From IMG/VR virus record IMGVR_UViG_3300008113_000076, positions 9,273 through 62,836 of that record: a DNA stretch of 53,564 nt; one strand, 5' to 3'. The notes beneath the pieces were generated by a model. The model had not been told where the DNA came from. It was given only the letters and a program-made list of their open reading frames with translations, and made no database searches. Positions within the stretch are counted from its first letter, which is position 1, and each line of letters begins with the position of its first letter. The stretch comes from a virus. This document shows, one piece after another, positions 6,667 to 18,159 of the stretch. The position numbers were made by a program, and so were the translations under genes.

Positions 6667-6683
6667 AGTTATTGTTTTTTTTG

Positions 6684-6756
6684 TAGTCGGGACAGGACTC
6701 GAACCTGTATCAATGCAGATAGCTACTCCACAGCGTCACCATTGCGCCACCCGACT
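6684..6756 (-). tRNA. tRNA, anticodon best read as AGC (Ala), CCA not encoded
   Basis: On the minus strand a 73-nt cloverleaf can be drawn: acceptor AGTCGGG/CCCGACT (7 perfect pairs), D-arm GGCGCAATGGTGACGC, anticodon stem GTGGA/TCTGC with two wobbles, and T-arm ACAGG-TTCGAGT-CCTGT with a canonical T loop. The seven-base anticodon loop GTAGCTA puts AGC at 6722-6724. G at position 32, unmodified A34 and a six-base variable region are unusual, so identity is uncertain. It lies seven bases after the ERF stop and 17 bases before the exonuclease start, within the same operon. Confidence 0.8.
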
Positions 6757-15793: not shown

Positions 15794-15811
15794 ACGATTT
15801 GATTTAGTGGT

Positions 15812-15904
15812 TTACCATGTAGCTTGTTCATTTCCGCTGATGCATAGCAAGATGGCTGCTATTACTATTACAATTGCTAGTGTTGTGATGTCTTTATTTT
15901 TCAT
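15812..15904 (-). CDS. Single-pass membrane micropeptide
   Basis: A 30-residue peptide starting MKNKDITTLAIVIVIAAILL with one strong hydrophobic span and a short polar tail. ATGA overlap with the upstream gene supports translation. The function is unknown. Confidence 0.5.
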   Translation of the reverse strand: MKNKDITTLAIVIVIAAILLCISGNEQATW

Positions 15905-16092
15905 ATAGCATACAATTGAGGGTTTGACATTTGGGTTTTGAGGATGAAATCCCGATACATTTGTCTAGCTTGACGGATATCACATCCGAATAGTTCCATG
16001 TACTTACGGATGATGCCTTGTTCCTTGGTTTCCATCTTTGATTCCGTAGGTCTGAACTTAGACCTTACGGGCATTTGTTTACGCTGTCTCAT
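15901..16092 (-). CDS. Hypothetical small basic protein
   Basis: The 63-residue basic protein contains IRKYMELFGCDIRQARQMYR, a possible helix-turn-helix. It could be an early DNA-binding regulator, but the match is weak. It is the second gene of the leftward block. Confidence 0.55.
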   Translation of the reverse strand: MRQRKQMPVRSKFRPTESKMETKEQGIIRKYMELFGCDIRQARQMYRDFILKTQMSNPQLYAI

Positions 16093-16107
16093 TTGATTTG
16101 GTTTTGG

Positions 16108-16302
16108 TTAAAATTCTAAATACTCAAGGGAATGACAAACAGGGTAGTAATATCCTTTGTCTTCCTCCCATGTTGTTGGCTTACCATCTTTGAAATAAAA
16201 CGAATGGCATCTTACAAAACCATCGTTTTTCATGCCTTCCCAAGTGAGCATGTCTTTTTGTTCTTGGGTTAATTCAGTTCCTTTGATTAATTGAATTTCC
16301 AT
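16108..16302 (-). CDS. Hypothetical small protein, first gene of the leftward block
   Basis: A 64-residue protein starting MEIQLIKGTELTQEQKDML. Its ATG lies only 20 bases after the closing stem of the large structured RNA candidate at 16322-16875, so it is probably translated from the same transcript. The A-rich leader (AAAACCAAACAAA) has no Shine-Dalgarno. Confidence 0.6.
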   Translation of the reverse strand: MEIQLIKGTELTQEQKDMLTWEGMKNDGFVRCHSFYFKDGKPTTWEEDKGYYYPVCHSLEYLEF

Positions 16303-16321
16303 TTTGTTTGGTTTTGATGTG

Positions 16322-16875
16322 GACTGCGTGAGATTGGTCGAAATCTCATAGAACGTATCTTTTTCAACACGTCACCATTCCTAAATTTTACGCAGTCAAA
16401 GGTGATTTTGTAATATGCAGTCCCTCTGCGTATCTGAGTGTGAACGTCACTCAGACCTTGCCTTCTTACCTATCGGAGGATGAACTTTTCGACTAGTTAC
16501 CTAGTCCGTCTCTACCCTCATTCCGATTCCGGTTTGGCTACTACACTACTCCCTATTTGGCTTTCGTGTGACTATTGTGTTAATCGGTTTAGTCAACCGC
16601 TAAGTTTAACCACATTGCAGGTGGGATACGTCTTGTAGGACTAGTGCATCAAACTAGGGAACGTGAGTGGCATTGAATTCGGTCATTCGCTAGGTAACTC
16701 GCAATTGCATCGAATGTGCTGCCGTTCCCGTCTCGTGCATTTCCTAGGTTTGGTGTTCACCTTCTCATTGCTATCATTTCGACAGGCGAGAAGGGATGCA
16801 TTTCCCTAACTAGGTGTGAGACATCATCTGAAAGAACTTCGGCAGATAGTGTGCTGCCGTTCACATTGTAAAATT
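16322..16875 (-). ncRNA. Candidate giant structured noncoding RNA (about 550 nt)
   Basis: There is no credible gene, but perfect helices are dense: GACTGCGT/ACGCAGTC (16322-16329 with 16390-16397), an 8-bp hairpin at 16433-16455, a 6-bp hairpin with GTAA tetraloop at 16491-16506, GGGAACG/CGTTCCC enclosing CATTCG/CGAATG (16657-16729), CCTTCTC/GAGAAGG (16760-16794) and CGGCAG/CTGCCG (16840-16859). The GNRA loop fits the minus strand. A near -7 element (TTAGTTTGC) lies just upstream at 16876-16884. The style is that of GOLLD/ROOL phage RNAs; the family was not established. Confidence 0.6.
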
Positions 16876-16967
16876 GCAAACTAAATTTCAGATAAAATGT
16901 TAAAGCCTTGTGAAGAAATAAGCTTTAAGAAAGTTTTAACAAATGGCCATCATGCTATATGGAAATG

Positions 16968-17006
16968 GCGCGCACATGCGCACATGTATGCGCACACACG
17001 CGCGTA
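16968..17006. repeat. 39-bp perfect alternating purine/pyrimidine tract (Z-DNA-prone)
   Basis: Every step alternates R-Y from 16968 to 17006, built of GCGCGCACATGCGCACATG and related CG/CA dinucleotides. Such tracts readily adopt Z-DNA under negative supercoiling. It lies at the divergence between the leftward and rightward blocks, next to TTAAC-rich DNA and iterons. Confidence 0.8.
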
Positions 17007-17297
17007 AGGGAAAAATGTGTTAAAAAAAAGCCAAAAATAGTGTTAAGGAAAACCAAAAATGCCCAAATTTGGCATATCTCCGCTTGGGTAAGGTATAGCT
17101 ATCAAACAGGCATACAGGCCCTAGAAACGCCTGTAATGGCCTTAAAACGCGTTAAAGAATTTAACATAAATCTTTGTTAAAGCTTTCACCTTAACAGCTT
17201 TTTAACGAAATTTCAATTAGTGGTTTTCCGTAAGTTATACGGATGGAGGAGGGTTTGCATGGGGTTTGTCCTATAGGGGTTTTCTAGGATATTGGGA

Positions 17298-17315
17298 GGG
17301 GTTATCCCCTTTTTT
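17298..17315 (+). terminator. Terminator-like hairpin
   Basis: GGGG-TTAT-CCCC followed directly by six T. It can be extended by outer GGAGG/CCTCC. It would stop a rightward transcript before the iterons. No clear promoter for such a transcript was found, so it may instead be a structural element of the origin region. Confidence 0.5.
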
Positions 17316-17329
17316 AACACCTCCTTAAC

Positions 17330-17463
17330 GTTCCATGTGGAACATATCCTACCAATCTAGTAGACTAAATATGTCAATGTTGGAACATCGAATCGCATAT
17401 CAGTGTTGTAACATTGTTTATCTATGTTGGAACATCAATGTTGGAACTTTAATGTTTGAACAT
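17330..17463. repeat. Six iterons, consensus ATGTTGGAACAT (candidate origin/operator array)
   Basis: Copies are seen at 17330-17345 (GTTCCATGTGGAACAT, a near-perfect palindrome), 17377-17388, 17403-17414, 17424-17435, 17438-17449 and 17452-17463. The last three start exactly 14 bases apart. Each half-site pair ATGTT/AACAT makes the unit a near-palindrome, suited to a dimeric DNA-binding protein. The array lies about 235 bases upstream of the RepL-like gene in the divergent intergenic region, so it is a candidate replication origin or repressor operator. Confidence 0.75.
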
Positions 17464-17661
17464 CGAAGGTACTCGGTCTAGGAATCCGACTTTCCTCAGG
17501 CGGGCCACAAAGCCTAGCGCGCGGAAGTCCCTTCGGACACTAAATATCTCACGGATTTGCGTAGTAGATAAATACAATTGTATACGCATTAATACTATTA
17601 AGAAGAAAACCTCATAACTAATTGGTAATCAATACTAGCATTCCTCTATAGCGGAATAGAA

Positions 17662-17692
17662 TTTGTCATTTGCGGAAAATGGGGTATATTTG
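17662..17692 (+). promoter_or_regulatory. Rightward promoter of the RepL-like gene
   Basis: TTTG (17662-17665), 19 bases, then TATATTTG (17685-17692): an exact match to the Bacteroidota consensus. The ATG of the next gene starts five bases after the box, so the mRNA would be essentially leaderless. Confidence 0.8.
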
Positions 17693-17697
17693 GATGT

Positions 17698-18159
17698 ATG
17701 AAGCATGAGTCATATTTCGAGAGTCCGTACAAATATATGAAGATTGAGGAGCGGGCGTATGTAACCAAGGAGAACGAGGAGATTACTACCAATCTGACTA
17801 CTGGTGAGTTGTTTGTGATGAAGAAGATAGCTGAGAACAAGACGGTCATGCATGACTCTCTGGTTTACACCAAGGTGTTCCAAGAATCAATCCATCAGTT
17901 AATGGGACTAAGCTCTGGAGCCTTGAAGATATTGCTGTACGCAATGGCAACGGTACGGCCTCTTTCTGAGATTGTAGTGCTTAACGGCCCAGATGTGATG
18001 CTATTCTGCAAAATAGGGAAGACTTCCTTTTATGAGGGTATAACCGAACTGCTTGACAAAAAGATACTATGCAAGAAGCTAGGAAGCAGTATTGAGTTCT
18101 GGTTTGACCCAAACATATTCTTCAACGGAAATAGGACCAAGCTTGTAAAGCACTCGTAA
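17698..18159 (+). CDS. RepL-like winged-helix replication protein
   Basis: The 153-residue protein has the RepL-type layout: LSSGALKILLYAMATV, then KTSFYEGITELLDKKILCKK (winged helix with recognition helix and wing), and the family-like ending FWFDPNIFFNGNR. RepL proteins initiate replication of small plasmids, and phages carry relatives as replication or regulatory proteins. The iteron array directly upstream strengthens an origin-binding role. A transcription regulator of the same fold is the alternative. Confidence 0.7.
   Translation: MKHESYFESPYKYMKIEERAYVTKENEEITTNLTTGELFVMKKIAENKTVMHDSLVYTKVFQESIHQLMGLSSGALKILLYAMATVRPLSEIVVLNGPDVMLFCKIGKTSFYEGITELLDKKILCKKLGSSIEFWFDPNIFFNGNRTKLVKHS

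Follow-up and report, generated by a model that had tools for sequence, protein, structure and literature searches.

The window analyzed here, 53,564 nt of a virus record of 62,836 bases, encodes on its minus strand (16322-16875) a structured RNA whose reality is borne out by the syntenic relatives of the phage. A sequence-only reading had proposed a noncoding minus-strand RNA of about 550 nt that follows a promoter and leads the leftward operon, and the compensatory base changes found among homologues in four alignments support this proposal. The portal protein of the window resembles PHROG 6547 (~26-30% identity to the portals of Flavobacterium, Cellulophaga, Maribacter, and Tenacibaculum phages), the terminase is PHROG 6681, and the host of the phage is a Bacteroidota-type bacterium. 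Leftward genes include a helicase-primase, an exonuclease and Erf, and the structural genes run rightward. The RNA heads the leftward early operon, with a long unbroken run of leftward genes behind it, and separates this operon from a divergent gene (the 17698 gene); the same place is occupied in the syntenic relatives, which carry a homologue of the 17698 gene (table 1). A tRNA-Ala with the anticodon AGC is found at 6683-6756 of the window.

Table 1. Features of the RNA, of the sequence that precedes it and of the gene that follows it (window positions).
Feature	Position	Strand	Remarks
-7 promoter box TTAGTTTG	16877..16884	-	one mismatch to TAnnTTTG; same place in syntenic relatives
5' hairpin CGGCAG-loop-CTGCCG ahead of boxA	16840..16859	-	hairpins of other sequence there in relatives
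boxA-like GTTCTTT	16831..16837	-	GYTCWTT at a conserved place in group 1
5' domain P1-P3 (model R1)	16654..16825	-	both-sided changes in 16/43 pairs; R1 finds L113
P4 stem GATGC/GTATC and neighbourhood	16594..16653	-	covaries with L085 (AATCC/GGATT) and L088 (GATAC/GTATC)
Central domain: long-range helix and GTAA hairpin (16491-16506)	16459..16593	-	L085 near identical
3' domain	16322..16458	-	TCTGAGTG hairpin; closing helix GACTGCGT/ACGCAGTC around hairpin with TCGACC loop
First leftward gene behind the RNA	16108..16302	-	64 aa, without family; start 19 nt past the end of the closing stem (16322)

Further elements are located between the RNA and the 17698 gene. A 17-nt repeat, AATGTTGGAACATCGAA, is present in four copies between the divergent operons (17376-17467) and might be an iteron or operator cluster, and an alternating purine-pyrimidine stretch, gcgcgcacatgcgcacatgtatgcgcacacacgcgcg, is located at 16966-17003, where most relatives have a varied version. 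About 70 bases just upstream of the 17698 gene (17589-17657) are ~77-86% identical in many relatives whose surrounding noncoding DNA is otherwise different, and this segment is probably the promoter or leader of the rightward operon.

The longest frames with an ATG, GTG, or TTG start across the RNA region encode ~50 aa, stops are present in every frame, and none of the nine indels between the window sequence (WIN) and the relative L085 within the homologous part (1, 8, 2, 2, 31, 1, 1, 1, and 1 nt) is a multiple of three. No conserved reading frame as expected of a protein gene was found, and the absence of a gene that had been noted from the letters is borne out by the frames and the indels. 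The dense perfect stems reported at the same time hold up against shuffled sequences: the region contains 41 perfect stems of 6 bp or more (27 +/- 5 in shuffles) and 18 of 7 bp or more (6.5 +/- 2.3), a number that was reached in 0 of 60 shuffles. The minimum free energy is lower than in dinucleotide shuffles on both the minus strand (z = -3.7) and the plus strand (z = -3.1), so that energy alone does not choose the strand, and the z score was dropped as evidence because it is close to 0 in most homologues. The stem excess is real, yet energy alone would not prove an RNA, and the convincing evidence is the covariation.

Syntenic relatives were retrieved with the window terminase and the 17698 gene as queries. 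The 11 closest relative loci were defined as group 1, some of them being near kin of each other (L102/L122 and L109/L111); homologues are few, with 2 to 4 in each group 1 alignment, and all of them come from uncultured phages. DNA similarity to the window RNA extends over 478 nt in L085 (71%), 236 nt in L088 (78%) and the first 70 nt in L125, and is faint in others. A covariance model of the 5' domain (R1) that was built from WIN, L085, and L088 identified L113 at its syntenic place in a search of 0.94 Mb (20.7 bits, E = 0.038), followed by a single further match at chance level, and did not match any relative of group 2 (described below). R1 found no match in 201 Flavobacteriaceae genomes, a set that holds no positive control, and none in one elemo phage and MW202828, which is weak evidence because the same search also misses L113. 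DNA pattern scans of IMG/VR with the 5' end and with a core string returned no contigs beyond the relatives already found. The GP88 relatives (L002-L081) were set aside as homologues, being neither syntenic nor in possession of the RNA.

The 5' domain was analyzed in an alignment (A7) of 172 nt of the window (16654-16825, minus strand) with the two relatives L085 and L088. A structure of 43 pairs accommodates the three sequences with 94.4% of the pair cells paired, and both-sided changes occur in 16 of the 43 pairs; shuffles give 5.5, and sliding the partners leaves 0-2. This comparison is somewhat biased in favor of the structure, which was drawn from the same three sequences, but the same conclusion follows from a column-shuffle test with a new fold prediction for every shuffle. 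The consensus fold lies far below the column shuffles in all four alignments (z = -7.6 for A7, -5.4 for A9, -6.0 for A10, and -6.0 for A4), and no shuffle reaches the observed compensations in any of them. The alignments of only two sequences contain 15 (3' half of L088/L125), 17 (L113/L122), and 20 (WIN/L085, whole RNA) compensated pairs, with consensus energies 5.4 to 6.0 standard deviations below the column shuffles. The outermost helix P1 is invariant among the window, L085, and L088 and varies once L113 and L122 are added (GTCTC/GAGAC, AGTCC/GGACT, and GGGTC/GACCC). L113 and L122 were placed by the motif ACAC...AAATGCAC, and both-sided changes are then present in 8 of 10 pairs of P1-P2, a count biased in favor of the structure by the hand alignment of the sequences as strand pairs. 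The match of R1 to L113 does not depend on this placement. With respect to the strand, the RNA (minus) strand outscores its complement in all four alignments, and the pairs of A7 include seven G-U and no A-C combinations. Neither outcome that the sequence-only reading had named as refuting, a lack of compensatory changes among homologues or a conserved protein frame, was observed.

The remaining domains are supported to different degrees. The 6-bp hairpin capped by GTAA that had been described from the letters was confirmed on the minus strand, and the central domain around it displays little covariation because L085 is nearly identical there; by eye, L088 and L125 carry a hairpin of different sequence in a matching context. 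The P3 loop AGTTACCTAG (16690-16699) and the GTAA hairpin CTAGGTAACT (16495-16504) form a perfect 10-bp complement of which 6 bp are retained in L085, a possible loop-loop contact or alternative fold. The 3' domain is the least certain part of the model; its closing helix is present with differing sequence in L085, L088, and L125, and the domain cannot be aligned in detail. The distance from the end of this helix to the first early gene agrees with the earlier description. No terminator or processing site was found at the 3' end of the RNA in the window. A tRNA-like 3' end, suggested by the TCGACC loop under the closing helix, was rejected based on the lack of a tRNA match in Rfam.

TAnnTTTG is the consensus of the Bacteroidota -7 box. 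The near -7 box that had been placed at the upstream edge of the RNA was confirmed, exact matches to the consensus are present in 6 of the 11 group 1 loci (L084, L088, L089, L102, L111, and L122), and transcription would be expected to start at ~16870; no -33 box is evident in the window. The string TAnnTTTG occurs in two published studies (PMC6847099, PMC9723704). A heptamer, GYTCWTT, follows 34-55 nt downstream of the -7 box in 11 of 11 group 1 loci, and a short hairpin of changing sequence stands between the two in most of these loci (by eye, CGGGG/CCCCG in L084, ATATCGG/CCGATAT in L113, GGGG/CCCC in L122, and another in L125). The element of L089 is GTTCATTGACAT, with which the rrn-spacer string GTTCWTTGACATATTGG begins, and L089 is the only group 1 locus with this Bacteroidota rrn form. 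A scan of GTDB genomes for GTTCWTTGACATATTGG placed 72 of the 119 matches listed in an rRNA operon, usually between 16S and 23S, as judged by a 16S end upstream and/or a 23S downstream (both in 42 of the 119 matches listed). In the rrn operons of Escherichia coli, boxB-boxA-boxC is found both where the operon begins and ahead of 23S, and boxA is both required and sufficient for the rrn antitermination complex (PMC10250234); the gamma-proteobacterial boxA consensus is GYTCTTTAANA (PMC5725501). Based on the occurrence of GTTCWTTGACATATTGG in rRNA operons, the E. coli order and this consensus, we read GYTCWTT as a putative rrn-type boxA, which in the window itself amounts to seven bases at a conserved place: only GTTCTTT is shared with the rrn string, and the octamer AGTTCTTT, with 6 matches in the window against 3.7 expected, is no rarity there.

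Behind this head the RNA varies rapidly. L084 and L089 are 80-93% identical on both flanks of the RNA, and L109 and L113 are 90-97% identical, but in neither pair can the RNA body be aligned by blastn. Part of the L113 RNA recurs in L122, not in L109, and L125 has its first 70 nt in common with the window and its 3' half in common with L088. The mosaic sharing and the unalignable bodies between close kin indicate that the RNA is modular and exchanged. The first gene behind the RNA also differs between relatives, and the position of the RNA is kept. The sequence-only reading missed the boxA-like element, the hairpin ahead of it, and the swapping of the RNA between close relatives in the manner of a cassette.

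A different arrangement was found in group 2 (L095, L098, L105, L121, L124, L127, and others), where a gene of ~130-155 aa comes first and is followed by a noncoding stretch of 550-890 nt. Judged by eye, this gene and the one that follows the RNA in L125 are related. A GTT(T)CWTTGA element is located within the noncoding stretch in L095, L098, L100, L103, L124, and L126 (e.g., GTTCATTGACATATTGG in L103 and GTTTCTTTGACATATTGG in L095), which suggests that the element travels with the noncoding stretch; in L121 and L127 a strict boxA precedes the first ORF and not the RNA. Covariation within group 2 is weak (z = -2.9, three compensated pairs). The 3' end of the noncoding stretch in L127 (2519-2570, minus strand) and the matching place in L095, L096, L099, and L121 form a minihelix with an acceptor-like stem of 6-7 bp, a canonical T-loop (TTCRANY) and a T run after it, possibly an RNase P site or a tRNA mimic, and L127 gives weak partial matches to the tmRNA and mascRNA models of Rfam through the T-arm-like hairpin. 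L095 and L096 contain a second T-arm-like element (AAAAAAG ... AGGGGTTCGACTCCCCT CTTTTTT, u ~1198-1262) that overlaps the stop codon of the first leftward ORF, so that their noncoding stretch is flanked by two tRNA-like hairpins.

The explanation that we favor, with confidence that is evenly balanced, is a discrete multi-domain structured phage RNA that acts in trans and whose synthesis, together with that of the operon, is protected by antitermination of the NusB/S10 type. We infer transcription, Nus loading, a separate RNA product and action in trans as follows. A Bacteroidota-type promoter would direct leftward transcription, with the RNA as the first product of the early operon, and the 5' hairpin and the boxA-like site ~40 nt past the promoter would recruit the NusB/S10 antitermination complex of the host in the manner of an rRNA leader. 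Protected from Rho termination, the polymerase could then cross ~500 nt of folded RNA that is not translated, and this complex would also take it into the long leftward operon. The RNA would work as a folded molecule in its own right, as suggested by its size, its conserved form, its fixed place despite changing neighbours and the boxA-like element in both arrangements, and its turnover suggests a changing partner.

The main rival is a cis-acting leader for processive antitermination, in which hairpin, boxA, and folded RNA modify the polymerase so that the long early operon is read and the RNA has no life of its own (cf. lambda nut and HK022 put). HK022 put is an antitermination site near the promoter of an early phage operon, and far fewer than 100 nt are enough for a nut or put site. 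Such a leader, a serious but unlikely possibility, would be consistent with the place at the operon head behind a promoter, a boxA-like site, and a hairpin before boxA, and with the long uninterrupted gene run downstream. It explains the position but not the 550 nt, the several separately covarying domains, or group 2, in which the noncoding stretch sits behind the first gene. Doubtful is the further reading of an exchangeable RNA cassette behind a constant rRNA-like head of promoter, hairpin, and boxA: whole RNAs would be swapped between close relatives like the specificity modules of an arms race, and the product, made through the host mode of rRNA transcription, would be a trans-acting effector that targets a host factor, for instance as a decoy or a scaffold. 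Control of the first gene or genes by a 5' leader of the attenuator or riboswitch type is improbable. The closing helix does end 19 nt upstream of the ATG, and its 3' strand GCAGTCC has two possible partners upstream, the GACTGC copies at 16417-16423 and 16390-16397, which might constitute a switch, but the duplicate GACTGC is not seen in L085, L088, and L125, the first gene varies between relatives while the RNA keeps its position, and the RNA is far larger than known switches. A DNA-level element with inverted repeats that fold only by chance, such as a replication origin or a binding region for a regulator, can nearly be dismissed, since the four 17-nt repeats and the alternating GCGC stretches of the adjoining 16880-17650 that would suit it fall outside the RNA, and both-sided changes in stems that lie far apart, together with G-U pairs on a single strand, fit an RNA and not DNA sites.

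Only a small number of large structured RNAs have been described from bacteria and phages, and GOLLD and ROOL still lack an assigned function. The discrete trans-acting RNA favored here, if true, would add a structured noncoding phage RNA of Bacteroidota to the users of boxA, beside rRNA and lambdoid phages; the constant head hints at the way in which these RNAs are synthesized, and the variable body hints at host-driven change. A cmscan search with Rfam 15 (gathering thresholds on the whole window, E up to 5 on 15800-17700) returned nothing beyond chance matches, and nine relative loci gave no Rfam match. GOLLD and ROOL, both suggested by the sequence-only reading, were rejected as identities because neither Rfam 15 model matches the window at gathering or relaxed thresholds, with the relatives also negative for ROOL; the undescribed class named as the alternative is supported by the covariation and the lack of an Rfam match. 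The RNA belongs to no described family as judged by the Rfam 15 models.

In kind, the window RNA is comparable with the ornate GOLLD and ROOL: a large noncoding, phage-encoded RNA of hundreds of nucleotides with extensive, elaborate structure supported by covariation. GOLLD has a less conserved 5' region (PMC12286853). The window RNA differs from both in heading an early operon behind a boxA-like site and in having no tRNA island beside it, the single tRNA-Ala being 9.6 kb away. The leader and spacer of rRNA operons (PMC10250234) resemble it in having a hairpin close to the promoter, then a boxA, for which the window has a boxA-like site, and then a long folded RNA that is not translated, but the window RNA is phage-encoded, has no rRNA match in Rfam and has only a short boxA core. 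Lambda nut and HK022 put share the head of an early phage operon and RNA signals near the promoter; in contrast to these, no N-like protein was identified, and the window RNA is many times longer and adopts a multi-domain covarying fold.
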